Origin: Acidobacteria bacterium UBA7540 | GTDB taxonomy: Bacteria > Acidobacteriota > Terriglobia > UBA7540 | Direction of reading: 5' to 3' | DNA: 64,000 nt | Assembly: GCA_002478145.1 (NCBI GenBank) | Contig: DLMI01000018.1 | Location: 64,033 to 128,032, forward strand | Shown here: positions 3,377 through 62,990 of the stretch, one piece after another | Position numbering within the stretch: position 1 is the stretch's first letter | Layout: each line of letters starts with the position of its first letter | Translations under genes and position numbers: made by a program | Notes under the pieces: model-generated | What the model was told of the DNA's origin: nothing | The model's database searches: none | What the model saw: only the letters and a program-made list of their open reading frames with translations

Positions 3377-3383
3377 CTCGGAA

Positions 3384-11379: not shown

Positions 11380-11437
11380 GGCTGTGGGTTCCGGACTTAA
11401 CACCACAATAAATTTGAATTTTCGGAAGGAGTGCCCC

Positions 11438-11974: not shown

Positions 11975-13460
11975 AGAAGAAAGGGCAAAGGCGCCTGCAC
12001 AGGCGGCGGAGCAGGTCGCGGAAAAGGGATTGCTGGATCAAATTGTTGAGGCCGGCAGGGTGGGAACAGACGTTGCCACCCGTGAGCGGGGCAAAAGCCT
12101 GGTGAAAGAATTCATCAGTCAGGTGCTGGAAGGGGAGGTCACCGTTTCGAAAGATGTGGAGGCGATGATTAATGCCCGAGTGGCGCAGATTGACCACCTG
12201 CTCTCCATCCAACTCAATGAGATCTTGCACTATCCCCAGTTTCAAAAACTCGAGGCAACCTGGCGCGGGTTAAAGTACCTCATCAGCCAAAGCGAGACCA
12301 GCGTCATGCTTAAGATTCGCATTATGAATGTTTCGAAGAAAGAGCTTCTGCGCGATCTACAGCGGGCTCCTGAATTCGATCAAAGCGCGCTGTTCAAGAA
12401 GGTATACGAAGAAGAGTTCGGGATTTTCGGCGGAGATCCTTTTGCCGCTTTGATCGGTGATTACGAGTTCAGCAAGAGCCCGGAGGATCTGGAACTCCTG
12501 GAAAAGGTCTCTCAGGTTGCTGGGGCGGCGCACGCGCCATTCCTGACGGCTGCTTCCTCACAACTACTGAATATGGAGAGTTTTACGCAATTGGATCAGC
12601 CGCGGGACATCGGAAAGATTTTTGATACCACCGAGTACGCCAAGTGGAAGTCGTTCCGCCAGAGCGACGATGCCCGTTATGTCGGGCTTTGCGTGCCACA
12701 CGTCCTGATGCGTCTTCCTTACGGTAGGGATACGGTCCCTGTGGACGCCTTCACTTACGAAGAGGGCGTGGATGGGACCGATCACACCAAGTACCTGTGG
12801 GGCAATGCAGCGTATGCCATGGGAGCGCGGTTGACGAATGCCTTCGCCTTGTATGGGTGGTGCGCGGCAATCCGGGGAGTGGAAGGCGGAGGTCTGGTGG
12901 AAGGGCTGCCCGCACATACTTTCCGAACGGACGAAGGGGACGTGGCGCTGAAGTGCCCCACCGAAATTGCCATTACGGACCGACGTGAGAAGGAACTGGC
13001 GGACCAGGGGCTGGTCCCCTTGGTGCATTGCAAGGGCACAGACAAGGCCGCGTTCTTCAGCGTGCAATCCGCAAATAAGCCCAAGTTGTACGACAGCGAT
13101 GCGGCCAACGCCAATGCTCGGCTCTCCGCGCAGTTGCCCTACATCATGGCCACGTGCAGGTTCGCCCATTACCTGAAGGCCATGATGCGGGATAAGATCG
13201 GCAGCTTCACTTCCCGCGACGAAATCCAGATGTTCCTCAACCGCTGGATTGCGCAATACGTGACCAGTGACGACACAGCAACCCAAGCGACGAAGGCGAA
13301 GTACCCATTACGGGAAGCGCGCATCGATGTGGAAGAGGTGAAGGGCAAGCCCGGCGTGTACCGCGCGGTGGCCTTCCTTCGCCCGCACTTCCAGCTCGAC
13401 GAGCTTACGGTTTCGCTGCGGTTGGTAGCATCGTTGCCGCAGTCTGCCGCCAGAGCTTAG
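11967..13460 (+). CDS. tssC: T6SS contractile sheath large subunit TssC (VipB)
   Basis: The protein has 497 residues, the usual TssC length. Diagnostic stretches are HYPQFQKLEATWRGLKYLI, FAALIGDYEFS, VLMRLPYGRDTVPVDAF and YLWGNAAYAMG. The C-terminal part, NRWIAQYVTSDD to LRLVASLPQSA, contains the region missing from the fusion paralogue at 4137. It forms the outer layer of the contractile sheath, and ClpV disassembles it after firing. It overlaps tssB by 8 bases and is followed by hcp after 83 bases. Confidence 0.95.
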   Translation: MAKEERAKAPAQAAEQVAEKGLLDQIVEAGRVGTDVATRERGKSLVKEFISQVLEGEVTVSKDVEAMINARVAQIDHLLSIQLNEILHYPQFQKLEATWRGLKYLISQSETSVMLKIRIMNVSKKELLRDLQRAPEFDQSALFKKVYEEEFGIFGGDPFAALIGDYEFSKSPEDLELLEKVSQVAGAAHAPFLTAASSQLLNMESFTQLDQPRDIGKIFDTTEYAKWKSFRQSDDARYVGLCVPHVLMRLPYGRDTVPVDAFTYEEGVDGTDHTKYLWGNAAYAMGARLTNAFALYGWCAAIRGVEGGGLVEGLPAHTFRTDEGDVALKCPTEIAITDRREKELADQGLVPLVHCKGTDKAAFFSVQSANKPKLYDSDAANANARLSAQLPYIMATCRFAHYLKAMMRDKIGSFTSRDEIQMFLNRWIAQYVTSDDTATQATKAKYPLREARIDVEEVKGKPGVYRAVAFLRPHFQLDELTVSLRLVASLPQSAARA

Positions 13461-36269: not shown

Positions 36270-39023
36270 TCAGAAGCGAGTCTGCGCTTCGTTTTCGAGT
36301 AGCTTGCGGATGTTCGGCTTCACGCTTCCTGGCAGCAGGGCCGGCAGCAGCGCCAGGCCTTCTTTTGCTGTTGTGCGGCTCTTCTCCATCTGGCCGGAGG
36401 CCCGATAGGCCTGGGCCAGGGTCAACTGCATGGAAGGCGTCTTTCCATGGCTCATCGCTACCTCGCGCTCGGCGCATGAGATGGCAAACTGCGGATTTCT
36501 GAGGGAGATCGGCTCTACCGTCAAGAAGGCATTTGCCGCCTGGTCGAGAACCATCGGGGAAGCCTGATCCTTCTCGGCCGTCTCCTTCAGGGCGGCGAGG
36601 CCTCTCCTCGATAACTCGTCTGAAGCTCCCCGGGTGTGCAGGATTCTTCTGATGGCGCCGATTCGCACCTGGATGAAGCCAAGGAACGACTCGCAGACAT
36701 CGTTGGCCGGATCCTGTTTCAGCAGCCGCTCAAGGTCGGCGGCGGCCTGCACGAGCTTCTTCTCCGCAACGACTAGGTTCACGCGGCGATCGCCGGCCTT
36801 CGCAGCCAGAACCGGATCGGCTGCATCCTCATAGCTCTTTGCTTCATCGTCCAGTACGGTTGCTACGTCGAAAAGAGCGCGGAAATCCTTCGGGTCCTGG
36901 GCGGCAATACGCTGGCTGATCTCAAGGGCTTGCTCGAAGAGCGGGACCGCCTGTGCATACGCTCCCAGTCGCTCGAGGGCGTTTGCCAGCTTGCGCAGCA
37001 GCATGGCGCGCAACCGCACGATAGGAAGGCTATCTTGCTCTGATCTGGGCAACGCATCGGCGCTCTGCAAGGCAGCCTGAAACTCCTTGAGCGCCTCCGC
37101 TGGATCGGTCGTCATCTCCACGCTGCCGATCTTCATCCGATTGATCGCAAGACCCCGTTTAGCACGCAAGAAATTCGGATCGACGCTGAGGGCGCGATCA
37201 TCCAGCGCCAGAGACTGGCGATAGGCGGCGACCGCCCCAGTAGAATCTGCCAGACTGGCTGTGCCGCTTTGACCCAGCTCGTCGCCAAGGGTGCCATAGG
37301 CGGAAGAAACCTCGTAGATCAGCGCGGCAGATGCATGGGGGTCCGCGGCCAATGCGTCAAAGCTCTTCATAGCCTCCCTCATGACGGAAACCGCCTCCGG
37401 CGTTTTGCCGGTTTGCCACAGAATCTCGCTGCGCGATTGCTCGACGAGGGCAAGCGCCCGGATCGCTTCGCGGTCCTTGGAATCGGAGGCTGCGAGCGGC
37501 GCGGCGATGGCGAGAGCCTTACCGAGGCTGACAAACGCACCCGCGGGATCGCCCAGATTCTGGTCGTAGGCATTGCCTTGAATATTCCCCAGCCGTGTAT
37601 ACGCATCAACCAGATCGAGCTGGGTCTGGCGGTCGCCCTGTGCGTCCTTGGCCATGCGGTCCAGGTGTTCGAGCACGCGCGTGACCAGCAGCTTCTGTAC
37701 GCCCGTGGAGCCGGGCAGTTGTTTGATCGCCTCATCCAATTCGGAGAGCAGGCTGTTGCTCAACTGGCGCAGGTCCGCGGAGCGCGCCTCGGCCTGGCGC
37801 CGCTCCTCATTGGCCACTCTGGCCTGCCACAACACGCCTGCAACGCCCGCAACCAGTGTGGCGGCCAGCAGTGCCGCTGCCGTTAGGCCCCACCGGTGGC
37901 GGCGGATGAACTTGCTGGCTCGATACCGAAGCGTGCCGCGGCGCGCCGCAACCGGCAGCCCGTCAAGGTAGGCACGAACATCGGAGGCGAGTTGCTCGGT
38001 GGTGAGATAACGCTCTTGGGGTTCCTTGCGTAGAGCCTTCAGCAGGATCGCCTCCAGATCGGCATCGAGCCGTCTGTGGGAGCCCGCTGCTTGAGCCGGC
38101 TTGCGAGGAGGTTCTTCGCAGATCACGCGCAGCATCTCTGCTGTAGTAAGTTCCTTGAGTTCATAGGGCAGCGTTCCAGTCAGCAGAAGATACAACAGAA
38201 CGCCGAGCGAGTAGGTGTCCGATGCAGTGGTGATGGGATTGCCTAACACCTGTTCCGGGCTGGCGTACTGCGGAGTAAAGGACAGATATCCTTCACGTGT
38301 AAGTTTGCTGGCCGGCCCGGCGAGAGACGGAGAGAGCAGTTTGGCCGTTCCAAAGTCCAGCAATCGGGGAGTGCTGTCTTCGGCCACCAGGATGTTATCC
38401 GGCTTTAAGTCGCGGTGGACTACGAAGTGCTGGTGGGCAAACTGCAAGGCTTCGCAGACGCGCATGAACAGCGCGAGTCGTTGGGGCACAGAAAGACGCT
38501 GCTTTTCACAGAAGCGATCGATGGCAACTCCATCCACATACTCCATCACCAGATAGAGATCGCCATTATGGGTAACGCCGCCATCCAGCAGGCGGGCAAT
38601 GAAGGGATGTTGCAGCTCAGCCAGAATCTGCCGTTCCTGACGAAATCTCTCCCGGAAGAGGTCGGTCGCAAGGGGCAGGTCAATCAATTTGATGGCGACC
38701 TTCTGCTCGAACTGTCCATCGGCGCGATGCGCCAGATAGACGGCGCCCATGCCGCCGCGTCCCAACAGGCGATCCAGCAAGAAGGGACCGATCTGCTTTA
38801 ATTCGGATAGGGCCTCTCGGCCAGTTTCTGGTTCCACCCGGCGGGATGCCGTCAGTTGCTCTTCCGCCTTGTAGGCATCGAGCAGCGAGCGCACCTCGGC
38901 TGCGAGTTCCCGGTCCCCGTTGCACCGGGTCTCAATCAATTCCGTCCGAGCTTCATCGGGTGCGGCGAGAGCCTCGTGGAAGATCGCCTCAATCCGCAGG
39001 AACCTTTCCGTCGTTTGGTTCAT
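36270..39023 (-). CDS. Ser/Thr protein kinase with membrane span and TPR-like C-terminus
   Basis: The protein has 917 residues from the ATG at 39023. A ~80-residue helical N-terminus precedes the kinase domain: GRGGMGAVY (88-96), K112 in VAIKL, HRDLKPDNI (203-211), DFGTAK (223-228). One membrane span lies near 378-398 (LTAAALLAATLVAGVAGVLW), followed by ~500 residues of TPR-like helices (e.g. AYTRLGNIQGNAYDQNLGDP). This layout is common in Acidobacteriota, where such kinases sit next to an ECF sigma factor gene, as here (170 bases downstream of it). It points away from the T6SS genes and is probably a separate signalling unit. Confidence 0.88.
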   Translation of the reverse strand: MNQTTERFLRIEAIFHEALAAPDEARTELIETRCNGDRELAAEVRSLLDAYKAEEQLTASRRVEPETGREALSELKQIGPFLLDRLLGRGGMGAVYLAHRADGQFEQKVAIKLIDLPLATDLFRERFRQERQILAELQHPFIARLLDGGVTHNGDLYLVMEYVDGVAIDRFCEKQRLSVPQRLALFMRVCEALQFAHQHFVVHRDLKPDNILVAEDSTPRLLDFGTAKLLSPSLAGPASKLTREGYLSFTPQYASPEQVLGNPITTASDTYSLGVLLYLLLTGTLPYELKELTTAEMLRVICEEPPRKPAQAAGSHRRLDADLEAILLKALRKEPQERYLTTEQLASDVRAYLDGLPVAARRGTLRYRASKFIRRHRWGLTAAALLAATLVAGVAGVLWQARVANEERRQAEARSADLRQLSNSLLSELDEAIKQLPGSTGVQKLLVTRVLEHLDRMAKDAQGDRQTQLDLVDAYTRLGNIQGNAYDQNLGDPAGAFVSLGKALAIAAPLAASDSKDREAIRALALVEQSRSEILWQTGKTPEAVSVMREAMKSFDALAADPHASAALIYEVSSAYGTLGDELGQSGTASLADSTGAVAAYRQSLALDDRALSVDPNFLRAKRGLAINRMKIGSVEMTTDPAEALKEFQAALQSADALPRSEQDSLPIVRLRAMLLRKLANALERLGAYAQAVPLFEQALEISQRIAAQDPKDFRALFDVATVLDDEAKSYEDAADPVLAAKAGDRRVNLVVAEKKLVQAAADLERLLKQDPANDVCESFLGFIQVRIGAIRRILHTRGASDELSRRGLAALKETAEKDQASPMVLDQAANAFLTVEPISLRNPQFAISCAEREVAMSHGKTPSMQLTLAQAYRASGQMEKSRTTAKEGLALLPALLPGSVKPNIRKLLENEAQTRF

Positions 39024-39106
39024 CTGAGCGACAACCCCGTGTGAGGTTTGTAACCCTAATATCAGACTGCGTGGGGCGGGGCCAAAGTGAATCACAGTCT
39101 CACTGC

Positions 39107-49533: not shown

Positions 49534-52500
49534 TTACCTGGCCACGCTCGAAACGCACTGCATCGTGGAAAGATAACCCTTTTGCAGAATGGGTGGGGCG
49601 CCCAGCGTGTCCAGGTCAAATTGCACCGTCACAGGCTTGCCGCTGGGAGCGGTAACGGGCCTTCCGCCCGCGACGCGCAGCACCCACTCAATGTTGTAAG
49701 TGGTCCCGGTTTGCTGCCACCTGTCAGCATCGGCAAAGAAGTGGAAGACTCCCCAGGTTCCATCGTAGCTCGGGAATCCCAATTCCGACCCACCTGAGAT
49801 CTTCACCGTCAGGCTAACGCCCTGTGAGGTGGTGCCCGGCCACATAAACTGCTTGAATGCTGCGTTTCCGCCTTTGTAAGTCATGGCCTGGCCGTCGATG
49901 TTCATGGTCAGGCTGCCGACGCTCTCAGTCGGATGGGGGCGAAGCGCGTACTTGAATTGGATCTGCCCGGGTCCACCCGTGTAGAGAGCCCGCTGAAGGC
50001 TCATGGCCCGGTTGAAGAAGCTGAGGAATGCGGGATTTACCTGCTGATTGCCTGCGGGGTTTGGAGCATACCCAACCCCCTGAGGAAGCAGAAGGTTCTT
50101 CAGCGAGGCATTGTAGAACTGAGAGAGCGCGCCGTTGGCGGGATCAAAAAACGCTGCAAGTTCCTGCGGCGAGGCGTCCACGGTGGCCTTGGCGTTAAAG
50201 GGAAACTTGGCTGCCAGAGGGCTCATTTGCGCGCACAAGCCTGCGCCACTCACCGGCCCGGGGCGCAAGACCGCTGAGACCCAGGCGATGGGAGCAAGCA
50301 GCAGATTCTGAACCGTCCCGTCCACATGCGCTTCTTGGTCGATTTTGAATCCCTGGCCAATCTGCCGGGCAGCTTGCTGCGCCATCGAGGCAGGGCTCAT
50401 GCACTGCTGTTTCGCAGCCTCCTTCTGCTCGGCGGGGCTATTGTTGACCTGGTCCAAACAGGCCTGGATTCCACTCAGACCGGAAACGTACTGGGAATTT
50501 TGGGGGCCGATATATTGGTCCTGGCAATTTGGTGAAACCACGACCTGGACAGGTTGGAAAGCTTTTGCGATGTCCGGCTGGTCAACGGCCGTATTCTGGG
50601 CTGCGGTGCAGAACAGAGCTAGCAGGGGAGACTGATTGCTCGAAGTCTTTGCGAGCTTTTGCGAGGCGTCGGGGAGGCTGTTGTAACGGACTACGTTCGC
50701 GCTCTTCAAGAATGCGCGCCATTGAGTGATATAGTCCTGCTGGTATCGAACTTGGAGGTCCTGTGCGAGCTTTGCGGTGTCCACATTCTGGGCACTCCCC
50801 GGGCCTAGTACCCACTCTTCTCCACTGAAATACCTGGGCAGATTCTTGAAGGCGTCCTGCATGAAGGCCCAGCCGGCTTTGGTAAAGGCGCCTTCCACTT
50901 CCTTTCCGTCAATGACGACTTCCGCAGAGCCGGGGAACTTGCGGTTAAAATTGATCGAGGGGTCGGCTTTTGAGGCTTCCGCCAGCATGAAGCGATATAC
51001 GCGCTCAGCGCCTGAGAACTGTGAGAGGTAATTGCGAGCGCGCGCCACCGCGAGCGTGTCGTTCTCGGATGAATAGGGATTCGCCTCCTTGAGTTGGTCG
51101 CTATAGAAATCGAACTGTTTCTGTGCCAATTGCACCCGATCCGGGTCAATGTCCCGGCCCGCAGCCCAGGCCTTCAGGAGCACGGGGGAGAGGAACAGGC
51201 GGGTGCTCTTGTCGTGATTGGAGGTTGTAATCAGATAAGCTTTCAGAGTGTCGTACACCGGGCCGTACTGATCGTTTGGGCCAGGTGTGCCGGGAAGGGC
51301 AGAGAGCGTCTGCACAAGGGTGGCTTGCGTCTGTCCAAAGAGAAGCTTCCGGAAGTGTTGAAAATAGATCTTTCGGACATCCGGGTAAAGCGAACTTCCA
51401 GTGTATAAGCCCCAGCGCATCCCGAATGGCGCGCCCTCCCGTTCGTACTGGGCCAGAGTCTCAACCGACTGACGGAGGGTCTCAAGCCGGTTGAGGGCAT
51501 CGAGGGAGGGGAGTTGCTGGGCCGTCAGTTGAACATTCGAAATCCCCTGAGCGGCATTCAGCACCTGCGATTCCAGGTTCTTGTTCTCAACGAACGAAAC
51601 AATGAAACCAACAATGAAAATGAGCAGGAGCCCCGTCGCCGCGGCCAGCAGCACCCTTCTCCATAGGCTCGTCTTGGTGCTGGAAGCGCTCGCGGTGAGG
51701 GCGGATGTATCTTTCAGAAGGATGTCATTAAAAAAATGGGGGAGGAAGGTCCACTGCGCCACTCGGCGGCTCTCGCCCTTTTCCTCAGCCATGGCCGGTC
51801 GGGCAGGCTGGGCGGCGAGCTTCTGGACGTCGAATAACCCTGTGGCGCGGAGCGCCCCTTTGCCAGCAGCGGGATGAGTGAGCGGTTCGTCTCTTACCAG
51901 AGTGGGCGCGGGCGCACTAATGACAATGGGGCGAACTCCGCTGAAGTAGAAGCCGCGAAGGAACGGCCCGGTTCGCAACTGGCTAGGCCGGCAGAGGTCC
52001 ACGAGCAACTGGACAAGCAGGGGCCGGAGTTTCCGGAATTCCCGTGGAAACTCGTATACGGAGGGGCGCTTGGTCGGGTCATATTCCCTCGGAAGGTACA
52101 TGAGACGCTTTTCGGCCAGGGAATAGAAGAGATTATCGAAGGCGGCCGAGACTCGAGCCGTTTCCTGCTCGGCGTAGACTTCCCCGGCGTAGGAGACCAT
52201 GGGCAGCGTGGCGCCCATGACCAGAGTCGCCTCTTCGTTGGTCAAATTGCGAACGTAATCCTGGAAGAATTGCAGTCGGTCGGCTCGCGTGAAGAGGACG
52301 TAAACCGGAAGGCTGATTCCCAGGAACTGAGAAATCTCGCGCAGCCGGGTGCGGAGCCGGTCGCTACTGGCGCCCATGGCTTCCGCCGCACCTGGTTTCA
52401 TGAAGCTTTCACAGTCAACGCAAACCAAGGCCGCGCGCGGCGCCTGCGTTCCCTTGCCAAACACCGAATGCAGCCGGCCGGGAGCAAGCTTCTTCACGAG

Positions 52501-53019
52501 CTTTGCCCATCTAGCAGGTTCAGAGAGGAGTTGGCCGCCCGCCTCGGCAAAGATAGACTGGCGCGTGAACCAAAGGTTCGCAGCCCGGGTGGGAATCGGG
52601 ACCTTGTCCTGCCCGGTATGCCCGGCCAGCAACTCAGGGTCGAGACCTGAGTGCAGAACCACGCTGGTTTTTGCCGAGCCGCTTTCACCCACAACGAAGA
52701 ACACCGGCAGATTGCCGATCCTCGCATTGCGGCCAAGTTGGGAGCCCTGGAGGCGGGACTCGGCTTCGCGAATCAGGACCTCGATTTCACCAGTCCCGCC
52801 GCTTGCCCCTTGGGCCATTTCCGCAGCGCGTTCTTTGTCCCGTACCCTGAGCCACCACACGATGGTGATGAACGCCGCAATACCGATCAGGGCCAGGACG
52901 ATGCGCAGTATCCAAAGGCTGTTCCCCTGCAAGTGCAGCCAGGAGGCGATAAACCAGGATAGGACCAGCCAGACAATAAGCGCCAAAGCGGCAATCCAAT
53001 ACTTTAAGGTGTTATTCAC
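49534..53019 (-). CDS. tssM: T6SS membrane-complex protein TssM (IcmF)
   Basis: The protein has 1161 residues. It has two N-terminal membrane spans (~7-27 and ~38-57), a cytoplasmic NTPase-like domain with Walker A GESGSAKT (111-118), a third span near 456-476, and a long periplasmic part with an IcmF C-terminal beta domain (SLTMNIDGQAMTYKGG, WPGTTSQGVSLTVKISGG, WGVFHFFADADRW). TssM spans the inner membrane and links the baseplate to the outer membrane; the Walker motif is intact here. It starts 9 bases after tssL on the minus strand, opposite to the main T6SS operon. Confidence 0.95.
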   Translation of the reverse strand: MNNTLKYWIAALALIVWLVLSWFIASWLHLQGNSLWILRIVLALIGIAAFITIVWWLRVRDKERAAEMAQGASGGTGEIEVLIREAESRLQGSQLGRNARIGNLPVFFVVGESGSAKTSVVLHSGLDPELLAGHTGQDKVPIPTRAANLWFTRQSIFAEAGGQLLSEPARWAKLVKKLAPGRLHSVFGKGTQAPRAALVCVDCESFMKPGAAEAMGASSDRLRTRLREISQFLGISLPVYVLFTRADRLQFFQDYVRNLTNEEATLVMGATLPMVSYAGEVYAEQETARVSAAFDNLFYSLAEKRLMYLPREYDPTKRPSVYEFPREFRKLRPLLVQLLVDLCRPSQLRTGPFLRGFYFSGVRPIVISAPAPTLVRDEPLTHPAAGKGALRATGLFDVQKLAAQPARPAMAEEKGESRRVAQWTFLPHFFNDILLKDTSALTASASSTKTSLWRRVLLAAATGLLLIFIVGFIVSFVENKNLESQVLNAAQGISNVQLTAQQLPSLDALNRLETLRQSVETLAQYEREGAPFGMRWGLYTGSSLYPDVRKIYFQHFRKLLFGQTQATLVQTLSALPGTPGPNDQYGPVYDTLKAYLITTSNHDKSTRLFLSPVLLKAWAAGRDIDPDRVQLAQKQFDFYSDQLKEANPYSSENDTLAVARARNYLSQFSGAERVYRFMLAEASKADPSINFNRKFPGSAEVVIDGKEVEGAFTKAGWAFMQDAFKNLPRYFSGEEWVLGPGSAQNVDTAKLAQDLQVRYQQDYITQWRAFLKSANVVRYNSLPDASQKLAKTSSNQSPLLALFCTAAQNTAVDQPDIAKAFQPVQVVVSPNCQDQYIGPQNSQYVSGLSGIQACLDQVNNSPAEQKEAAKQQCMSPASMAQQAARQIGQGFKIDQEAHVDGTVQNLLLAPIAWVSAVLRPGPVSGAGLCAQMSPLAAKFPFNAKATVDASPQELAAFFDPANGALSQFYNASLKNLLLPQGVGYAPNPAGNQQVNPAFLSFFNRAMSLQRALYTGGPGQIQFKYALRPHPTESVGSLTMNIDGQAMTYKGGNAAFKQFMWPGTTSQGVSLTVKISGGSELGFPSYDGTWGVFHFFADADRWQQTGTTYNIEWVLRVAGGRPVTAPSGKPVTVQFDLDTLGAPPILQKGYLSTMQCVSSVAR

Positions 53020-53028: not shown

Positions 53029-53811
53029 CTACTGTGTTGTGATGGAGGCTGTGGAGTGCAAACCGGATGCGCCCGACATCAAGGCGAACTTGAAGCCGAC
53101 AAACAATAACAGAGCCAGAAGAAGAAACCCCACCGCCCCGAAGGCCAGCCTGCGCACCCAAGGGTCGTAGGCCCTTGGCCGCACCGCATCCCGTGGAGGC
53201 GACCAGTTCGGTGACAGCGGGCGTACTCCTCCACGAATGCGCTGCATCTTATCCGCTATCGCCTCCAACACTGCATGTATGCCCTCTTGGCCGCTGAGGC
53301 TGTAACGGCCGCGGTACCCCAGCAGGAGACACAGGGCAAAGACCTCCAGCGTATCGGCGAGCTGGGGGGAATCGCTACGGGCAAGAAGGCGGTCAATGCA
53401 CTGAAAGAAAATCTCTCCTGCTGTATGCCCGCCGAACAATTCCTCCTGCAAGGGCATACGAGGCCAATCGGCGAAGACAGGATTATTGGAGTTGAGAATA
53501 GACTCGTCCAGGAACGCCACGATGGCAAACGTGGCTAGCCGGGTGTCTTCAACGGGATAGCCTTTTGACGTAGCCTCCGACTCGGCCGCGCTAATCCCTG
53601 CCTTCATCTGCTTGCGGAATGCGCCTGCATCCGTGGCGGCCTGGCGATTTGAGCGGAGGCGCGTAATTGCCGTCAGAACCTCCTGATAAATCAGGGCCAG
53701 GTTTTCACGGCCTTGCGCCGGGGAAGAGCCGGGGCTTTGAGGAATTGCTGCTTGGGACGGATATACACCCACTTTGGACCTCTTATGGAGAGCTGTAAAA
53801 TACGGCGACAT
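53029..53811 (-). CDS. tssL: T6SS inner-membrane protein TssL (DotU)
   Basis: The protein has 260 residues with the DotU fold: ATFAIVAFLDESILNS, WPRMPLQEELFGGHTAGEIF and LCLLLGYRGRYSLSG. A single C-terminal membrane anchor lies at ~222-244 (LAFGAVGFLLLALLLFVGF). There is no peptidoglycan-binding OmpA extension. GGAGAATGA precedes the ATG. It sits between tssK and tssM, all on the minus strand, and forms the membrane complex with TssM. Confidence 0.94.
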   Translation of the reverse strand: MSPYFTALHKRSKVGVYPSQAAIPQSPGSSPAQGRENLALIYQEVLTAITRLRSNRQAATDAGAFRKQMKAGISAAESEATSKGYPVEDTRLATFAIVAFLDESILNSNNPVFADWPRMPLQEELFGGHTAGEIFFQCIDRLLARSDSPQLADTLEVFALCLLLGYRGRYSLSGQEGIHAVLEAIADKMQRIRGGVRPLSPNWSPPRDAVRPRAYDPWVRRLAFGAVGFLLLALLLFVGFKFALMSGASGLHSTASITTQ

Positions 53812-53901: not shown

Positions 53902-55260
53902 TCATTGGTTTTCCAAGACGACCAGGAGTTCGACCTGCGGGCTGGGGATGTCTCCCGGAATGTAAATCCCGACGCGGCGGGTTTGAACAATATGATCCCA
54001 GCAAGGACCCGTCCTGCTGATGGCGAAGTATTGACTTTCCACTCGCGCGGATACCGCCGAGGGAGGTACGGACATGTGCGTGAGCGCCATGCCAGGCAGT
54101 GCTCTTTTGACCAGTTGTGGCACAAACTGAGCGGAACAAACTTTGACCAGTTGTATCGTCCTGGTAATCACTTCTGCGTCACCGATGGCCGAGTGAACGG
54201 AGAGGAGCCAGCGGGCCCGGTCCAAGCAGCGTTGATCGGTGACATCGCCCTCGTAGAAGTAATTGGCGACGGAGCGGAGCGGAATGGGAATGCAATTCGA
54301 CGGCGCCAGCAACTCGAGGTGCGCCCGGATGTGCCTTTCGATGTCTGCAAAGCACTTGTCGAGTGCGAGGTGATTGTAAAGTGGAAGATTCGAGGGGTGG
54401 GAGTCCAAGGCGAAAGTGCAAAGCGCACCCCCCAGTCGGAGGAGCTCTGTGAAGAGCTCGGCAGGGTGCCCGCTTTGTGAAACGAACATATGACGCAGCG
54501 GGCCCAGACTGGAGTTTATGGCGTGCAGGAACCAGAAGCGGCTGACCTCTTGAGCCGAAAGCCCCGTCTGAAACTTCCCGCGCCCCCGATTATCAAGGGA
54601 AACCGTCGCGCTCTTCTCCTGAAGAATGTCGATCAGGCGGCGGGTCATCATCATCAGTGTTTGACTGGCGCTGATCTGGAGGCAGGGCGGGATGAAGCCT
54701 TCGTCGTAAACGTAGTTGCCCGATCCGTCTCTTTTGATGCGTCCGATCGGCAAGGTCTGCAATTCCCCGGCATCCTCCGTATCCAGGAGCAGTCGTATGT
54801 TCTTTCGTCCCAGTTTGAGCGGCTTCTCATCCAGGCCGGTATTCTCATCAGGAAGGATTTTTTCTTCGGCAATATACCTCGTCCGCCCTTTGTCTTGCTC
54901 ATCGGGAAAAGAGCAATTCGCAGCCCCAAGCCTGTGTGGCGGGACCGTCAGGAGCACCGTCAGGTTCTCGCGAATGGGCGGGAAAAGGTCGCTAATATTG
55001 CGCGGCGAGGGAACGGGATCACTCTCCGGAATATTGAAGGTGAGCCCGTCCTGAAAAATGCCGCGTGCATGCACTAGGGCTACCGTGCCGTTGCGAAGAG
55101 CTTCCCCATCCAGTTCGAGCCCGACCAGTCCATAGGGCTCAAACCATAAGTTCGAGATCTCGAAATGCGTGACTTCTTCGAAAAAGCGACCCTGCACTTG
55201 AAAGTGGTGCGGCCCCAGATACATGCCCTCCGACCACACAACCTTGGAAAGTTGCTTCAT
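53902..55260 (-). CDS. tssK: T6SS baseplate protein TssK, copy 1
   Basis: The protein has 452 residues, the normal length. The N-terminus KVVWSEGMYLGPHHFQVQGR, the central LMMMTRRLIDILQEKS region and the C-terminal ALPGMALTHMSVPPSAVSAR and WDHIVQTRRVGIYIPGDIP match TssK. TssK trimers connect the TssEFG wedge to TssL and TssM. The gene heads the minus-strand set tssK-tssL-tssM. It diverges from the proline-rich repeat protein at 55758. A second, clearly different TssK lies at 58217. Confidence 0.94.
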   Translation of the reverse strand: MKQLSKVVWSEGMYLGPHHFQVQGRFFEEVTHFEISNLWFEPYGLVGLELDGEALRNGTVALVHARGIFQDGLTFNIPESDPVPSPRNISDLFPPIRENLTVLLTVPPHRLGAANCSFPDEQDKGRTRYIAEEKILPDENTGLDEKPLKLGRKNIRLLLDTEDAGELQTLPIGRIKRDGSGNYVYDEGFIPPCLQISASQTLMMMTRRLIDILQEKSATVSLDNRGRGKFQTGLSAQEVSRFWFLHAINSSLGPLRHMFVSQSGHPAELFTELLRLGGALCTFALDSHPSNLPLYNHLALDKCFADIERHIRAHLELLAPSNCIPIPLRSVANYFYEGDVTDQRCLDRARWLLSVHSAIGDAEVITRTIQLVKVCSAQFVPQLVKRALPGMALTHMSVPPSAVSARVESQYFAISRTGPCWDHIVQTRRVGIYIPGDIPSPQVELLVVLENQ

Positions 55261-55702
55261 AGAGTTGATCCGATAGCTCTAAGATTTCCTTTATCTTTGC
55301 CTGCCGCAGCCCAAACGACTACCTAAAGTCTTCTCCGCTGCTTTGCGGGTTCGTTTCCTCAAGCCCGAGTGGCAGCCCCGTTTCGAGACCATCAATCACC
55401 GTTCCTCGTGGCAGGAGGAACGGAGTGCCGCCTGGAGGTGAGCATAACATAAATTAAGCTTGGCTTCATGCTGGCTGCAACGTTAATATTACAACATCTC
55501 AGGTCAAGGCAGAACTCTTTCGCGATTGCGTGCCCATGATGCAGGAGATGCGGATCACAATTCTGACTCATGAATTGGCCCCTTCCGTTTCCTTACGGCT
55601 TGCAGCCAACTCCTTACTGCCTTCCGTTCTTGAAGAGCTGCAAGTCTCCTGCCACCTTGCCCCTGAAACCTGACACCTGTCTTTTCGGCGGAGTTGCTAA
55701 GG
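55261..55702. other. Divergent regulatory region between tssK and the repeat protein
   Basis: No gene is supported. A hairpin or operator-like inverted repeat lies at 55399-55423: CCGTTCCT, 9-base spacer, AGGAACGG. AT-rich DNA follows from 55440. The rightward promoter is at 55703-55731. Confidence 0.5.
55399..55423. promoter_or_regulatory. Inverted repeat in the tssK leader region
   Basis: CCGTTCCT (55399-55406) and AGGAACGG (55416-55423) are perfect 8-base arms with a 9-base spacer. It lies 139 bases upstream of the tssK start. It could be an operator or an mRNA hairpin; no known regulator site is recognised. Confidence 0.35.
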
Positions 55703-55731
55703 TTGTACAACTAATTTCATGATAATATAAA
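55703..55731 (+). promoter_or_regulatory. Sigma70-type promoter of the repeat-protein gene
   Basis: TTGTAC (55703-55708) and TATAAA (55726-55731) are 17 bases apart. The -10 matches at five of six positions. The start codon at 55758 lies 27 bases beyond the -10. Confidence 0.5.
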
Positions 55732-55757
55732 TATCAAACGAAGATGGTGGATCAGCC

Positions 55758-57734
55758 ATGGATTTTCAGGGAAGATACCAGATTCTGGAAATGCTGAGTG
55801 ACGGGGAAGCGAGGACCTTCAAGGCGCTCCAGACTTCGTCCGGCCGCATCGTACTCCTACACCAACTTTGGGAGGAGCGGACTCCTCCCAATCAGCCTGA
55901 TTTGGCCTCACTGGTTTTCGGGTTCCTCCGACGCGCGACTGCCGAAGAAATGAAGAGTTTGGTCGACATGGGCGAAGAGGCGAACCGCGTGTTCGTCGTG
56001 ACCGAGGATCTGCCTGAGTGTCAGGACCTTCGACAATGGCTCCAATCAGCGCCAGGGACGCTGGGAACGGCAGGGAAGGCGAGTGTGCCCAAATCTGCTC
56101 CAAGTGGTGATTCCAGCGCAATCGCAGCAACCAGGGGCTTGGTCTCGCACGCAAGGCAAGAGGATTTGGCTTCGCCTGGACCCACGCAGCTTTTCACAAC
56201 CCCGAAAGTTATTGCCGACCAGACGTTATCTGCATCTGAAGAAAAACCTGCGAGCACCCCGACAACACATCCAGAACCTGCCGTTGAACCGGGGACTTTT
56301 GCGAGCCCTGCCAAACTCGCGGGAGACTTAGGAGGGCTCTCAGAAGGCGAGGTTTTGAAGGCAGCGGAGCCCCCAGTTGCGCCACCTCCACCCTCGAGGG
56401 AAAGGGGTGAGGTCAGCGAGTTCACAAGGGCCTTCTTCGGCAAGGACATGCCGGCGCCGAAGGCGGCTAGGCCCGTTTCCTCCCCACCTGAAAAGCCGAG
56501 CGCACCCCCAGCCCGGACCGCGGAAAAGCCTCCCGACCGCCAGCTTCCGGCTGGCTTCGAAGTGGTTTTCGAGAGCCGCAAACAGCAGCCTCGCGTTCCC
56601 GCACCGCCGGCACGTAAGGAGCCTCTACCGCCTCCGCCCCCCGCGCCGGGTCGTGAGGAAGGGGCGCCGGGAGAATTTACACGAATCTTCTATGGTCGGG
56701 ACGAATCGAAGGGCATACCACCCAGCCCTGAACCCGCCGCCGAGAGAACGCGCTTGCCTTCTCTAGCCCCTGCCCAACCATCTCAATCCGAGGGTTCTCG
56801 GGAATTCACGAGACTCTTCAAGGCTGCGCATGTGAAGGAGCCGCCACCTGCTGCGCCCTCTGTCGAGGCCAAGCCGACCCGTGAGCGTCCGCCTCAATCT
56901 CCCCCACCTCCACCCTCTGCCGTGGAATCTGAAGGTCCGGGTGAGTTCACGCGAATGTTCCACGCTGGCCCGCAGCCGACCCGGCCAGCGGGACCTTCGA
57001 TCCCCACCAGTTCGCCCAGGCCGCTGGTTCCATTGTCCGGTTCCTCGAGCCAGCAAGGTCCCGGGGAATTGACGCAATTGATTCAGGGGTACCAGCCGCA
57101 GAAGAGTGGACCGACACTTCCAGTGGTCCAGCGACCCGAACCAGTGGCCCCGCCTCCGCCCCCGGCGGCCGATAAAGCAAAACCTGGCGCATTCACCCTG
57201 ATCTTCCAGCGGCCGTCTGAACCGACAACCCCGCCGCCTCCTGCTGTACTGTCACCACCGGTTGTACAAACTCCACCGACTGCCCCGCAATCACCCGAGG
57301 AGGATGAGTACATGCGCATGTTTGAGCTTCCCGGTGGAGGTGCAGGCGCGCCACCGCAGGGTGCTCCGCAGGCGCCACCTCCGGCAGTACCACAACCGGC
57401 CGCAGGGCGTGCCGCGCCGGTGATCCCCATGGTGTCTGTTTCGCCTCCTGTGGCTCCCAGCATGCCCTACGTTCAACCACCTGTGGTGCCTCAGCCGCAA
57501 CCATACCAGATACCCGCCCCGCAGTTTCAACAGCCTGCCGTGCCTTCCCCATTCGTTACGCCTCCACAACCTGTGATGCCGCAGATGCAGCCGATGGCCG
57601 TTCCCGTGCCCGTGGCGCCTCAGGTAGCGCCCCCCCAAAGCGGCAAGAGCAAATTCCTTGTACCGCTCATCATTTTGGGAGGACTGTTCTTGATTGCGGT
57701 GGTATTGATTCTTTTCTTTGCTCTTAAACACTAG
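55758..57734 (+). CDS. Tail-anchored proline-rich protein with degenerate kinase N-lobe and EFTRxF repeats
   Basis: The protein has 658 residues. Residues ~5-97 read like the N-lobe of a Hanks kinase (GRYQILEML, TFKALQTSSGRIVLLHQL, VFVVTEDLPECQDLRQWL). The glycine loop is lost (SDGEART), the catalytic Lys is replaced (LLHQL), and no C-lobe follows, so it cannot be an active kinase. The rest is Pro-rich and probably disordered. It carries seven spaced motifs: EFTRAF (221), EFTRIF (306), EFTRLF (349), EFTRMF (396), ELTQLI (437), AFTLIF (478), EYMRMF (517). A single C-terminal membrane span (~632-656) leaves two residues outside, a tail anchor. It diverges from tssK copy 1 and converges on copy 2. 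A scaffold role in the T6SS membrane or baseplate region is inferred. Confidence 0.8.
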   Translation: MDFQGRYQILEMLSDGEARTFKALQTSSGRIVLLHQLWEERTPPNQPDLASLVFGFLRRATAEEMKSLVDMGEEANRVFVVTEDLPECQDLRQWLQSAPGTLGTAGKASVPKSAPSGDSSAIAATRGLVSHARQEDLASPGPTQLFTTPKVIADQTLSASEEKPASTPTTHPEPAVEPGTFASPAKLAGDLGGLSEGEVLKAAEPPVAPPPPSRERGEVSEFTRAFFGKDMPAPKAARPVSSPPEKPSAPPARTAEKPPDRQLPAGFEVVFESRKQQPRVPAPPARKEPLPPPPPAPGREEGAPGEFTRIFYGRDESKGIPPSPEPAAERTRLPSLAPAQPSQSEGSREFTRLFKAAHVKEPPPAAPSVEAKPTRERPPQSPPPPPSAVESEGPGEFTRMFHAGPQPTRPAGPSIPTSSPRPLVPLSGSSSQQGPGELTQLIQGYQPQKSGPTLPVVQRPEPVAPPPPPAADKAKPGAFTLIFQRPSEPTTPPPPAVLSPPVVQTPPTAPQSPEEDEYMRMFELPGGGAGAPPQGAPQAPPPAVPQPAAGRAAPVIPMVSVSPPVAPSMPYVQPPVVPQPQPYQIPAPQFQQPAVPSPFVTPPQPVMPQMQPMAVPVPVAPQVAPPQSGKSKFLVPLIILGGLFLIAVVLILFFALKH

Positions 57735-58216: not shown

Positions 58217-59572
58217 TCACTCGGCTTGAGGCAGGAGAATGATGAGTTCGAGCTGCGGGTTCGCAATCTCGCCGGGAACATATGCGGCGAAGTTTCGAGC
58301 ACGCCCCACGGCATCCCAGCAAACTCCGGCCTGATTCAGGCTGAAATATTGATAGTTCATCTTAATGGGAATCGAGCCCGGAGGAGAAGGGACGTGCGTT
58401 AATTGTAAGCCGGGAAGAGCCTGGCGAATGAGTGTTTCAATATGCGTGGCGGAACAAACCTTGACGAGTTGAGGCACCCTCTTGAGAAGGTCTGCCTCGC
58501 TCAAGTCCGCACTGATGGCCAAGTACATGCGCGTATTCACGAGGTATTTGTCGTTCGCAAGCGCCGTGGAATAAATTGAGGGCTGGGTGAGTTTTAATGG
58601 CAATGAAACGAAGTTGCTGGGCACAACCGTCTCGAGGAGCGTCCGCAGCTTCTCGTCGAGGTCGGAAAAGCAGGCGCCCAGGTTATCGTGGTCGTAAAGG
58701 GGGAGATCGCGAGGCTGTAACGTGGTCGAAAAGGTTGTGAGCGATGCCGCCAGGGCAAGCATCGTTGTGTACAAACCCTCCGGATGGCCTTTCTTGGATT
58801 CAAAAATGTGGCGCATGATGGGGAAATAGCTGTTTGCCGTATAAAGCAGCCAGAAGTTGGCAATGTCAGACGCCGTAAAATCCGCCAGGCTCTGGTTCTT
58901 CTGCCTGCGCGTTCCCGAAAGGGTGCTGCCCTTGGCAGCCAGGATCTCAACCAGCCGGCGCAAAATCGCCACCAGATACTCGCTCGCCGAGATATCGAGC
59001 AACGGTGGAATAAACAGCGGATCTAACTGGTAAGTGCCGGCCGCGGTCTTTTTCACACGAGCCATACGCAAACAAGTACTGCCCTGAAGGGGTTCTCCCT
59101 CCACAAGTAGCCGCAGGTTCTTCCTGGCAATTTGAACTGGTCTTTCCGCCAGTCCGGTGTTCTCGTCGCGCGTGAGAGCAATTTCGGCTTGGTAGCGAGT
59201 ATCTCCATTTTTCTGCGCCACGGAAACATTGAAGCCGCGATCATGGTACTGAGGAACTGCAAGGAAGACCTCAAGGGCACTCTGATCGGGACCAAAGGAC
59301 TGCTCAATCGGCCTTGCTCCCGGGGCGGCATCCGAGTCAGGAATCTCAAATGCCAAGCCATCGGGAAACAGCCCCACCGCGCGCGAAAGCGATAAGCTGC
59401 CGGCGGAAAGAGCCTCATGGTCAATCTGCAGCTCTGCAAAGCCCCAGGGGCAGAACTTCAAGGCACTTAACTTGAACTCCAAAACATTTTCGAAAAATCG
59501 GTCCTGGAGTTGCAGATGCTGGGGCGTGAGGAAGGTCCCCTTGGCCCAGATCACCGGTTGGAGTCGCCTCAT
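58217..59572 (-). CDS. tssK: T6SS baseplate protein TssK, copy 2
   Basis: The protein has 451 residues from the ATG at 59572. TssK features are present along its full length: QPVIWAKGTFLTPQHLQLQD at the start, SASEYLVAILRRLVEILAAK, and VPQLVKVCSATHIETLIRQA, then LPGLQLTHVPSPPGSIPIKM near the end. It differs from copy 1 at most positions outside these motifs, so it is an old paralogue and not a recent duplication. It is transcribed on its own on the minus strand. It could serve an alternative baseplate or an accessory complex. No frameshift or truncation is seen. Confidence 0.9.
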   Translation of the reverse strand: MRRLQPVIWAKGTFLTPQHLQLQDRFFENVLEFKLSALKFCPWGFAELQIDHEALSAGSLSLSRAVGLFPDGLAFEIPDSDAAPGARPIEQSFGPDQSALEVFLAVPQYHDRGFNVSVAQKNGDTRYQAEIALTRDENTGLAERPVQIARKNLRLLVEGEPLQGSTCLRMARVKKTAAGTYQLDPLFIPPLLDISASEYLVAILRRLVEILAAKGSTLSGTRRQKNQSLADFTASDIANFWLLYTANSYFPIMRHIFESKKGHPEGLYTTMLALAASLTTFSTTLQPRDLPLYDHDNLGACFSDLDEKLRTLLETVVPSNFVSLPLKLTQPSIYSTALANDKYLVNTRMYLAISADLSEADLLKRVPQLVKVCSATHIETLIRQALPGLQLTHVPSPPGSIPIKMNYQYFSLNQAGVCWDAVGRARNFAAYVPGEIANPQLELIILLPQAE

Positions 59573-60398
59573 ACAGTACCAAGCTAGCAAGAGTTTGCAA
59601 TCAAAGTCAAACAGGAAATCGGCGGGGCGCCTGCTTCGGACGGCGCCGCTTTCGGAGCGAAATTGTCAGCGGTCCCGCCCGGGCGAGTCAGCTTTCAGCG
59701 CTCAGCTATCCCGCCGTGGCGAGTCAGCTTTCCGCGTCCCAGAAAACGGGTCTGGGTGCAGGGAAGTTTTGGATTTTGAATTCCGAGTACTGAGCATGCA
59801 TAGCCGAAAACGGCTATCCGTGATGTCAGAAACGGCCTGCCGCGAGGTGAGACCGAAGGGTAGGTTTTTCGTGCCCTGCAAGGGCACAAGATAGTAGCCG
59901 GGGGCAACGCCCCCGGAAGGCGCCACGATCGTTCCCCGACCCTGGAGGGGTCGTATTACCCTGAGCCGCGGGACGCAAGACCGGCGTGACGCCACCCGAA
60001 TTCGACCCTTTCAGGGTCGGACCTTGTTGGGGGCGCGTTTTCCGGGGGCGTTGCCCCCGGCTACTGTATCGATCCCCTCCGGGGATCAAGGATGGACAGT
60101 GGCGAGGACGTTCTGCGGGCGCAAAAACCAGGTAAAGCGCCTTCCGGTTCGCTCGGCCTGAATTGCTCAACTGAAACGACTAGTCCATCGAGTTTCTGGA
60201 GAGTTGCCTCTTCGCTTCTCACCGCAGCCTCCTGTCTTCTGACTTTTCCACGTGACTCGCCACTACTCTTGTCAGTCAATCGTACTAGGGAGTGCTCACA
60301 AAGGCTTGCAATTTCCAAGGTATCGTATAAACTGTAATTGTTCAGGGTCCTCCGTGAGTGAAAATTGAGGTTTTTGCGGTAGAGAGGGAATCGTAGGC
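59573..60398. other. Long intergenic region with inverted-repeat element
   Basis: It contains the element at 59892-60065 and two copies of GCGAGTCAGCTTT near 59682 and 59718. The remaining open frames are short, without ribosome binding sites. It separates tssK copy 2 from the phosphatase chimera. Confidence 0.5.
59892..60065. repeat. 174-bp element with perfect 26-bp terminal inverted repeats
   Basis: The arm at 59892-59917 (AGTAGCCGGGGGCAACGCCC and six more) is the exact reverse complement of 60040-60065. Each arm is itself palindromic. Inner hairpins use CGACCCT/AGGGTCG words. Same architecture as the elements at 30908, 39975 and 57885. Confidence 0.85.
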
Positions 60399-62990
60399 GT
60401 GGCGTTCTACTCCCCCCAACCCACCTCTGAGAACATCCAAGACGATGCAGGTGTCCGCCTTTGCGCTCATGTCGCCCCGCTCAACGATACGGGCCAAAAG
60501 CGGAAGAACAATGAAGACAGTCATCTGATCTTTCCGTTGGATGACAGTGTTGCCCCGCAAAACGGAGAGGAAAACGTCTTAGGATTGTCCCCTCCGGGTT
60601 TGCTGCTGGCCGTGGCAGACGGAATGGGCGGCCACATTGCAGGCGAGGTGGCAAGCCGGATGTGCGTTGAGAACCTGGCGAAGGAGATGACGGCGCAGTT
60701 CCTCGTGGCGGGAGCGACGGCGCCCGATTTGTCAGTGGCGCTCCGGAAGGCGGTCGAGGCGGCTCACCAGGGCGTTTATACCCACTCACAGCAGCATGCG
60801 CAAGGCTCGACCATGGGGACTACGTTGACTGCGGCGGTCTTGAATGGGAGTCGGGCTACCGTTGCGCAGGTCGGTGATTCTCGCGCTTATCTATTTCGTG
60901 GTGGGAGCCTGATTCTCTTAACGCAAGACCAGACCATTGGCAATTTGCTCCGCAGCCGCGGCGAAGATTCCGACCGTGTAAGCAGCCAGATCAAGGAAAT
61001 GCTAACGCAAGCCGTCGGCGCGCAGCCGGACATCGAAGTCATCATGAGCGCTGTCGACTTGGAGCCTGGCGATGTACTGTTGTTGTGCAGTGATGGCCTC
61101 TATAAGGCTGTTTCGGCATCTGGCATGGTGGAGCCTGAAGATCTTGCAATGGGCGTGATCTGGCCACTCCAAGGAGAACCGGCCGCTAAGCCGAAACCAG
61201 GGCTCAAGCCGAAGCCCAGGTCGATGCGCATGGCCCCGAAAGGGCTTTGGAGCGAGCCGCTGCTAACCGGCACGGTCCAACCGAACGCCTACCCTGCCAA
61301 GTGGGGGCCGAGCTTCACCTACGCCGATTGCTTCCACGATTATGTTGTTTACCCGACAGGTACGGCGGGCACTTCAGGCGCAGCAAGCATCTTCGCCTTC
61401 TACACTCTTTATACTAATTGCCCCAGCCAGGTGATTCCGTCCATCTATTGGGCCTTTAACACGGGCGGCACGGTATCAACTTCTCCAATAATCTCCTTAG
61501 ACGGCTCACAGGTAGCGTTCATTCAGCAGGTTAGCGGCGATTCAACAACAGCAAGCCTCGTTCTCCTGAAGCCGTTTTTAACGGTCCAGGGAAACATTTC
61601 TGACAACTCTGAGACTCTCACTGTTACGTCGGGAACCGTCACCTCGGCGGATGTAGGTATGCTGATTCTCGGTCAAGGCATAGGCCCTGGCACCACCGTC
61701 ACCGACGTCAGCGGGGACGGTTCCACCATTACAATGTCAGAGGGGGCCGCGAACGACATGACCGGAGTAACGCTCGCCTTAGCAGAGCCTGGGACGCTCA
61801 GCTCGCCTTGGTCCCTTACGAGTCAGGCGTCGGGCGCCGCTTATCAGGCCTGTGCGGCCCCTTGCATGCTCACCCTGCCCTTTTCCGGCGCCGTCAACGA
61901 CACGCTCTCAGCGCCGTTCTATGATTACACCAACGATGCGCTTTATGTCGGCGACGACAGCGGCAATCTTCACATGTTCACAGAGGTCTTTAATGGGACC
62001 CCAAGCGAGGTGACGACAAGCTCTTGGCCCGTTAGTCTGGGCGGTAAGGGCCTCGCGTCCCCTGTGTACGACCCCGTCTCTGGGAACGTTTTTGTGGGTG
62101 ACGTGGCAGGTTACCTTTATTCCGTGAGCTCAGCCGGGTCAGTTGCTAAGTCGGCCAATCTGGGGGATGTTATTATCGACGGCCCACTGGTTGATTCCTC
62201 TGCGGGGACGGTCTACGCCTTTGTCACCACAAATAACGATGCCAGTGGTCAGCCCGCCATTCCCGGTTATAACGCCGTGTTTCAATTTGCTACCAACTTC
62301 TCCAGCGGCAGCAACGGCAACGGGACCGCAACAGGCACAGAACTGGGGGCAGGCGGCGCGGGATATTATCTTCAATCAGGTACCTTCGACAATGTGTACT
62401 ACCTGACGTCGGGTTCCGCAGGGAACCTTTGGGTAGCAGGAAACACCGGCGCGACGGCCGGTCCAGGGAAGCTGTACCGGATACCAATCTCCATTTCTGG
62501 CATGGGGACCCCCGGTGTAGCCGTTGCGAGCCTCACCGGTAGCAGCCTACCTTCGTGGTCATCTCCCCTTGTCGAGTTCTGCAACAACGGTAAGAACCCG
62601 TGCAGCACCGACGGAACGAATACCATAGGGGGGGGAATAGACTATCTTTTCTTCAGCGTTAACAGTGGGGATTTAACAGTTACGAATAAATGTACCAACG
62701 GCGCTGGAAACGGCTGCGTTTTGGCCTATGATATTACCACTCCATCGAGCCCCGCCCTCTCCGGCAGCTTGAATGTTACAAATGTTGGTTCTAATGGCTG
62801 TTGGGCGACGGGTGGGTTGGTGATCGACAATTCCGATGACTACCAGCCGGCTAACCAAAACCAGGTTTACTTCATAGGTTTAAATGGCAACACCGCAGGT
62901 GGTCCTGGTGGTCCCACTAGTAAGGCCTGCACGAGCGTTAGTGGAAAAACCACTCTGGCCTGGCAGGCGTCGCAATCGGATTTACAATGA
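60399..62990 (+). CDS. PP2C-type phosphatase domain fused to a beta-propeller fragment (chimera)
   Basis: The protein has 863 residues from a GTG. Residues ~22-243 are a PP2C/Stp1-like Ser/Thr phosphatase: RKNNEDSHL, VADGMGGHIAGEVAS (D74), TMGTTLTAAV, QVGDSRAYLFR, LLLCSDGLYKAV (D232). The final PP2C segment with its metal-binding Asp (GG-x-DN) is missing. After ~250 the sequence changes to a beta-rich secreted-type protein (WSEPLLTGTVQPNAYPAKWG, ISLDGSQVAFIQQVSG, FYDYTNDALYVGDDSGNLHM) typical of exported propeller proteins of soil bacteria, but without a signal peptide. The join lies near 61130-61210. Either a genomic deletion or an assembly join produced it. The phosphatase is probably impaired. 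Confidence 0.75.
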   Translation: MAFYSPQPTSENIQDDAGVRLCAHVAPLNDTGQKRKNNEDSHLIFPLDDSVAPQNGEENVLGLSPPGLLLAVADGMGGHIAGEVASRMCVENLAKEMTAQFLVAGATAPDLSVALRKAVEAAHQGVYTHSQQHAQGSTMGTTLTAAVLNGSRATVAQVGDSRAYLFRGGSLILLTQDQTIGNLLRSRGEDSDRVSSQIKEMLTQAVGAQPDIEVIMSAVDLEPGDVLLLCSDGLYKAVSASGMVEPEDLAMGVIWPLQGEPAAKPKPGLKPKPRSMRMAPKGLWSEPLLTGTVQPNAYPAKWGPSFTYADCFHDYVVYPTGTAGTSGAASIFAFYTLYTNCPSQVIPSIYWAFNTGGTVSTSPIISLDGSQVAFIQQVSGDSTTASLVLLKPFLTVQGNISDNSETLTVTSGTVTSADVGMLILGQGIGPGTTVTDVSGDGSTITMSEGAANDMTGVTLALAEPGTLSSPWSLTSQASGAAYQACAAPCMLTLPFSGAVNDTLSAPFYDYTNDALYVGDDSGNLHMFTEVFNGTPSEVTTSSWPVSLGGKGLASPVYDPVSGNVFVGDVAGYLYSVSSAGSVAKSANLGDVIIDGPLVDSSAGTVYAFVTTNNDASGQPAIPGYNAVFQFATNFSSGSNGNGTATGTELGAGGAGYYLQSGTFDNVYYLTSGSAGNLWVAGNTGATAGPGKLYRIPISISGMGTPGVAVASLTGSSLPSWSSPLVEFCNNGKNPCSTDGTNTIGGGIDYLFFSVNSGDLTVTNKCTNGAGNGCVLAYDITTPSSPALSGSLNVTNVGSNGCWATGGLVIDNSDDYQPANQNQVYFIGLNGNTAGGPGGPTSKACTSVSGKTTLAWQASQSDLQ

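Follow-up and report, generated by a model that had tools for sequence, protein, structure and literature searches.

Two questions about the type VI secretion system (T6SS), by what means its baseplate locates the membrane complex and stays attached to it and what starts assembly, form the background to a gene lying between two tssK genes in the DNA analysed here, a 64,000-nucleotide acidobacterial stretch referred to throughout as the window. An earlier note on this DNA had proposed that the gene product, hereafter the array protein, carries a docking or phospho-Thr array that gathers a partner such as TssK at the membrane.

Results

Architecture of the array protein

The array protein is encoded by the open reading frame at 55758..57734 (+), which specifies 658 residues and is identical to P0001 of the homologue set described below. 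Its existence, and the N-lobe lacking Lys and C-lobe, Pro-rich arm, seven motifs and C-terminal anchor described by the earlier note, were all confirmed from sequence and AF2 prediction. Residues 1-97 (55758..56048, +) form a kinase-like N-lobe in the AF2 model (block pLDDT 87-97) and in structure matches, with His35, invariant in 37/37 homologues, at the place where kinases carry the catalytic Lys. The fold stops after a helix at residues 91-97, these 97 residues being the only folded part, and the kinase C-lobe is absent, as is a complete kinase domain with HRD and DFG; Pfam searches with the array protein gave neither a kinase nor an FHA match. The lobe is followed by a disordered Pro-rich arm (residues 98-633, 56049..57656, +; AF2 pLDDT mostly <60) of about 530 disordered residues, Pro making up 24% of residues 98-630. 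No helices are present inside the arm in the AF2 monomer, a result with which folding upon binding is compatible. A single terminal TM helix is predicted by AF2 (residues 634-657, 57657..57728, +), and would hold the protein in the inner membrane with the arm probably on the cytoplasmic side.

Seven motif copies are distributed along the arm, all on the + strand. Motifs 1 to 4 (EFTRAF, residues 221-226, 56418..56435; EFTRIF, residues 306-311, 56673..56690; EFTRLF, residues 349-354, 56802..56819; EFTRMF, residues 396-401, 56943..56960) were recognized by motif scan and conservation. Motifs 5 and 6, both relaxed (ELTQLI, residues 437-442, 57066..57083; AFTLIF, residues 478-483, 57189..57206), and motif 7 (EYMRMF, residues 517-522, 57306..57323) were recognized by conservation; in motif 7 Met replaces Thr, at a position 92% uniform across 37 close orthologues. 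A GFEVVF element at residues 266-271 (56553..56570, +) is retained as GFEMVF in motif-poor paralogues.

Conservation of the motif copies

Across the 37 close orthologues, a set that contains the array protein itself, conservation was 0.87 in the motif windows, 0.86 in the lobe and 0.87 in the TM helix, against 0.68 in the filler, and seven windows placed at random never reached the motif value in 5000 draws. The motif is therefore kept and the filler less so, one of two comparisons on which the earlier note had staked its proposal. In shuffled arms EFTR.F arose in 3 of 20,000 shuffles, never in more than one copy, and with a matrix trained on this same family 6.6-6.8 motif matches were found per protein compared with 0.00-0.05 in shuffles, over five thresholds. 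The search for the motif in homologues from other acidobacterial T6SS loci, which that note had also suggested, recovered further arrays, among them the 73 array ORFs described below.

The motif core can be written (F/A)-T-x-(hydrophobic)-(F/hydrophobic). With its own position masked, Thr was found in 95.4% of 435 copies from lobe-bearing ORFs and in 96.7% of 123 copies from ORFs without a lobe match, and Ser in 0.9% and 1.6%, respectively. After the Thr, the most constant positions are the F directly before it and position +3, which is hydrophobic. At the position two before the Thr the acidic residue varies, being E in 77% of copies in lobe-bearing ORFs, and E in 42% and D in 7% where there is no lobe match. 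Both sets of ORFs were selected for at least four copies, and on that basis copy number had a median of 8 (range 4-20, n=55) with the lobe and 7 (5-13, n=19) without a lobe match, at a median spacing of 40 and 43.5. Short conserved motifs within disordered, poorly conserved linkers are characteristic of multivalent docking (SLiM) arrays, whose copies would bind a common partner.

An acidobacterial family with lobe-less members

The array protein belongs to an unnamed acidobacterial family. A homologue search produced 78 proteins including P0001, of which 67 combine the lobe with three or more motif matches and a hydrophobic end, seven lack the hydrophobic end and four have fewer than three motif matches. 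With the motif region of the distant member P0072 as query, 118 new identifiers were obtained among the best 120 of 130 matches; 110 of these have lobe, hydrophobic end and array, four have lobe and array with an unclear end, three have end and array but no lobe, and the remaining one, P0168, has six motif copies and neither lobe nor end. No Pfam family was found for the distant members P0072 and P0074. The diverse A1 profile was unsuited to scanning contigs, for which a closer set, A2, was used.

In P0168 (521 aa) the six PGEFT[RQ]-type copies lie between a zinc-ribbon/weak TIR-like N-terminus, below Pfam cut-offs, and a C-terminal part, and by its sequence the motif appears to be used outside the array-protein family.

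When a lobe-less ORF (L155) served as query, 38 proteins were found; every one has an array and a hydrophobic end, and a lobe match was obtained for none. Among the fetched loci 19 array ORFs had no lobe match, although true losses number fewer than 19 because several ORFs run into a contig end (e.g. L063, L068, L094, L117 and L119). Complete open frames starting without a lobe were seen in L062, L142, L145, L147, L152, L154 and L155, a lobe past a frameshift being possible. Some relatives without the kinase lobe thus retain array and TM anchor, indicating that the core of the array protein lies elsewhere than in its kinase-like lobe.

Linkage to T6SS genes

In the window the array gene stands head-to-head with a tssK1-tssL-tssM series. 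Its divergent neighbour tssK1 (53902..55260, -; TIGR03353, 354 bits; synteny) lies across an intergenic region given by the coordinates 55261..55757, and is accompanied by tssL (DotU/TssL, 53029..53811, -; TIGR03349) and tssM (IcmF, 49534..53019, -; TIGR03348). The convergent neighbour tssK2 (58217..59590, -; TIGR03353, 404 bits), taken by its co-occurrence as marker of the variant, encodes a protein that matches solved TssK over residues 13-453 (441 residues). Elsewhere in the window, a single ORF at 4062-5705 matches the sheath proteins VipA (first part) and VipB (second part), alongside separate tssB and tssC at 11351-13460, and similar fused-match ORFs recur near TssK2 in other genomes. 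E2-like/ThiF, metal-binding CEHH and DUF2604 ORFs stand in a row at 999-3877, by our reading a ubiquitin-like conjugation set.

A window-like arrangement was also present in L001, L004, L008, L059, L061, L062 and many further loci. Array ORFs were counted where at least four motif matches, two of them strong, were found, giving 73 after removal of a duplicate (L076) and with a gene split over two contigs counted as two. A divergent tssK1 lies within 3 kb upstream of 55 of the 73, or 56 with L141, where tssK1 overlaps an extension of the open frame; a convergent tssK2 lies downstream of 46; and for 15 none of the queried genes was seen upstream, often because the sequence ends there. Within 8 kb of 69 of the 73 there is a tssK, tssL or tssM, a linkage that is partly by construction because most loci were fetched by TssK2. 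Among eight loci found by the array protein itself, TssK adjoins in six, L006 is at a contig end and L003 shows no TssK beside the array. Seventeen of 20 regions found by the array protein in genomes lacking it near TssK2 adjoin tssK1, tssL or tssM, the other three being L198, L205 and L209; together with L003 these are the arrays without tssK, tssL or tssM within 8 kb, and in G003 TssK2 is located approximately 18 kb away on the same contig. Two short frames, L069:8349-8969 (206 aa) and L249:4398-5447 (350 residues), have a lobe, a hydrophobic end and three motifs, and no T6SS gene was seen close to either. Homologues mostly outside T6SS loci, which the earlier note held would speak against its proposal, were the opposite of what was observed, the fairer measure being the TssK2-positive share of carriers given below. 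Linkage to tss genes is conserved, as for a T6SS accessory component.

Co-occurrence with TssK2

In a phylum sample of 396 genomes, TssK was detected in 58 (E <= 1e-15) and a close TssK2 (at least 55% identity) in seven of the 58. Six genomes matched A1, all among these seven, and the seventh, G257, carries a lobe-less form; with three candidates scored per genome and the G257 array found by reading the locus, 6/396 is an undercount. In a class sample of 399 genomes TssK2 was present in 91 (E <= 1e-135). Among these 91, 78 yielded a family member, and two or more motif copies were present in 76 of the 78, counts that are uncorrected for kinship. Nine of the 78 were read directly (G001, G002, G004, G006, G007, G008, G179, G257 and G360), 46 came from a motif scan beside TssK2 (G597 and G664 with the lobe and two copies only), and 22 of the remaining 36 genomes were identified by profile, to which G713 is added. 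G511 (L195) and G703 (L212), both among the 78, had about one motif copy in the ORF read, and G416 and G728 had six and five motif matches. G500 was left out, its genome match (E 6e-6) covering the kinase-like part only. No family member was found in 13 of the 91 TssK2 genomes (G444, G548, G552, G660, G604, G418, G462, G500, G748, G449, G454, G600 and G680), several of which have short TssK2 contigs, G600 being uncertain with the best 20 of 34 candidates scored; in G444 and G548 tssK1 and tssK2 are close together and the array between them is absent.

In 51 genomes where TssK occurs and TssK2 does not, neither of two profiles, A1 and A3, detected a family member; A3 did match G257, G360 and G713. 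Reading of 24 of these 51 TssK-only loci with the motif matrix revealed no array; a 1520-aa ORF in L218 gave four weak matches and none strong. Class genomes matching A1 (E <= 1e-8, three candidates each) numbered 66 of 399, of which 60 were TssK2-positive, compared with 91 of 399 overall. The six without TssK2 at the strict threshold were G443, G471, G571, G612, G701 and G712, and three of these were read, showing one copy (L248), three (L249) and one (L250, 1004-aa ORF). The array protein travels with T6SSs that have two TssK paralogues, in counts where kinship is uncorrected.

TssK paralogues and motif-poor loci

In a tree of 26 of 68 TssK1, 26 of 98 TssK2 and 24 ordinary TssK sequences, the TssK1 rows formed their own clade and TssK2 was not one clade under midpoint rooting. 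Domain-wise TssK conservation yielded no clear docking site. In five loci read, the array gene faces tssL-tssM with no adjoining tssK, and in four of the five roughly a single copy of the array motif is left. One GEYTRM-like copy, along with the lobe and the hydrophobic end, remains in L195, L245 and L246, and one strong copy in L212; L211 is the exception, with five copies kept. Three of these four motif-poor loci appear closely related to one another, and further second copies (e.g. in G546, G532 and G603) lie outside the comparison. Near-loss of the array where no tssK adjoins points, weakly, to TssK as its partner. For the earlier proposal of a partner such as TssK the support is thus circumstantial, coming from co-occurrence with a second TssK and from these four loci.

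Kinases, phosphatase and FHA domains

Three Ser/Thr kinase genes are present in the window, at 26136..27932 (+; Pkinase), 31182..35915 (+; with PEGA/TPR) and 36270..39095 (-; with TPR), all recognized in a domain search that also identified a PP2C-like phosphatase ORF at 60399..62990 (+). The NCBIfam match of this ORF ends at profile position 196/232 and is followed by approximately 600 residues of other sequence; its relative in L001 has 284 aa. With the window kinases as queries and limited flanks, a kinase match lay within 10 kb of 23 of the 73 array ORFs and was not found for the other 50 within the sequence available.

Whole-genome searches of 20 genomes gave no FHA match even at E <= 5 in three, all array-bearing (G567, G711 and G360, with 3, 9 and at least 8 motif matches), in which kinases are present, with a kinase lying approximately 11-24 kb from TssK2. 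An FHA match lay within 15 kb of TssK2 in two of the 20 genomes, a distance that is meaningful only where both share a contig. In G418 tssK2 is directly preceded by an ORF (L122:1760-2998) in which an FHA match is combined with a Pro-rich stretch and a further C-terminal part, and which follows an ORF that looks to us like PAAR; no array was found in G418. Since three array-bearing genomes gave no FHA match, an FHA reader is not general, and an obligatory one is ruled out by this search. Of the earlier note's proposal, the motif array, its C-terminal anchor and their association with a T6SS hold up, and a phospho-Thr array read by FHA is weakened as a general mechanism.

Discussion

Array, anchor helix, disorder, conservation, gene linkage and TssK2 co-occurrence come from sequence and prediction. 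Our preferred reading, to which we give an even chance of being right, is that the array protein is a membrane-tethered multivalent docking scaffold, accessory to the two-TssK acidobacterial T6SS variant. The C-terminal helix would anchor it in the inner membrane and the disordered cytoplasmic arm would display the short Thr-centred docking motif many times over; each copy would bind weakly, and jointly the copies could gather a multimeric partner next to TssL-TssM, retain it and favour assembly there. A tethered arm with many weak sites suits the capture of a multimeric target such as TssK trimers, and the most likely partner would be trimeric TssK, TssK2 first; another variant-specific gene could provide the partner instead. 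Docking may be switched by the locus kinases and PP2C through the near-invariant Thr. Partner identity, avidity and phospho-control are what we infer in this scheme. In the solved baseplate wedge TssK is present as two trimers, and attachment to the membrane complex is ascribed to the TssK head (PMC6300606). A tentative extension, which we think will more probably fail than hold, is that TssK1 and TssK2 fill the two trimer positions per wedge, TssK1 heads docking TssL-TssM and the array catching TssK2 heads, so that the array-TssK2 link would be a second baseplate-membrane linkage through multivalent Thr-centred peptides; no precedent for a second, peptide-based linkage was found in the literature searched.

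It is rather unlikely, in our estimation, that the copies act as a phospho-Thr array whose Thr is phosphorylated by one of the locus kinases and then bound, as pT-x-x-F, by an FHA protein, a mechanism known from other T6SSs as the threonine phosphorylation pathway. A preference for pThr and recognition of position +3 are typical of FHA domains, and the motif offers an almost invariant Thr, replaced by Ser in 1-2% of masked copies, and a hydrophobic residue at +3. Kinases are present in the window and approximately 11-24 kb from TssK2 in the three genomes without an FHA match, an FHA ORF directly precedes tssK2 in G418, and in Agrobacterium Fha binding to phospho-Thr14 of TssL is reported to activate secretion (PMC3953482). 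This reading is, however, at odds with the three array-bearing genomes in which no FHA match was found, with the scarcity of FHA near TssK2 (two of 20 genomes, and G418 without an array found) and with an acidic residue two before the Thr in only about half of the copies from ORFs without a lobe match. That the N-lobe instead pairs with locus kinases, which the array, as a substrate with many sites, would titrate or localise, is improbable: the N-lobe fold, the kinase matches near 23 array ORFs and the Acidovorax membrane kinase whose condensates are reported to recruit T6SS parts (PMC12607579) would all fit, but the lobe is missing in relatives that keep the array and 50 of the 73 array ORFs have no kinase match within 10 kb in the sequence available.

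A general adaptor, whose motif binds a housekeeping partner and of which T6SS loci are merely frequent users, would account for arrays with no T6SS gene seen nearby (L198, L205, L209, L249 and L069) and for the six copies of P0168 in a zinc-ribbon/weak TIR-like setting without a TM end. It sits poorly with the absence of the family from all 51 TssK-only genomes and with TssK2 in 60 of 66 carriers, genomes without any TssK being covered through the phylum (396) and class (399) samples with three candidates scored each, and we regard it as distinctly improbable. The Pro-rich filler and variable copy number might suggest a non-functional low-complexity repeat expansion, yet motif columns are conserved far above filler and Thr is retained in 95-97% of masked copies, making this extremely improbable.

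Under the preferred scaffold reading, a phylum common in soil seems to equip its two-TssK machine with a multivalent tether dedicated to it, and peptide-binding and copy-number tests are direct, since the motif is a short repeat that some paralogous loci naturally have and others have nearly lost. No name or family was found for the array protein, and no description of it or of the motif EFTRMF among the titles listed on acidobacterial T6SS or tssK1/tssK2 paralogues, in a search that covered few subscription journals, and we rate the array protein as a candidate new accessory component of the T6SS on its sequence.

Among known proteins, both array-gene neighbours are TssK by sequence, as in the solved structures (5m30, 6gj3), here with two paralogues per locus. 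The array protein shares the kinase N-lobe fold with pseudokinases such as CASK by structure match, but unlike these two-lobed proteins lacks a C-lobe, and has His, invariant in 37, at the Lys position. It shares a predicted TM anchor with PpkA-type T6SS kinases but not their complete kinase domain with HRD/DFG, and the FHA domain of the Fha/TagH scaffold has no Pfam match in it. With Agrobacterium TssL (PMC3953482) it has in common a Thr-centred site on an inner-membrane T6SS protein, the difference being that TssL is a core subunit with one such site, whereas here many copies form an array on a protein of its own, with no FHA match in three of 20 genomes. Condensate-forming membrane scaffolds are reported for PpkA-Fha of Acidovorax citrulli, and the PpkA-Fha-TssW axis (PMC12607579) resembles the array protein as an inner-membrane, kinase-related, proposed recruiter of T6SS components; the array protein differs in having an N-lobe without catalytic parts, no FHA domain, a repeated motif and lobe-less forms.
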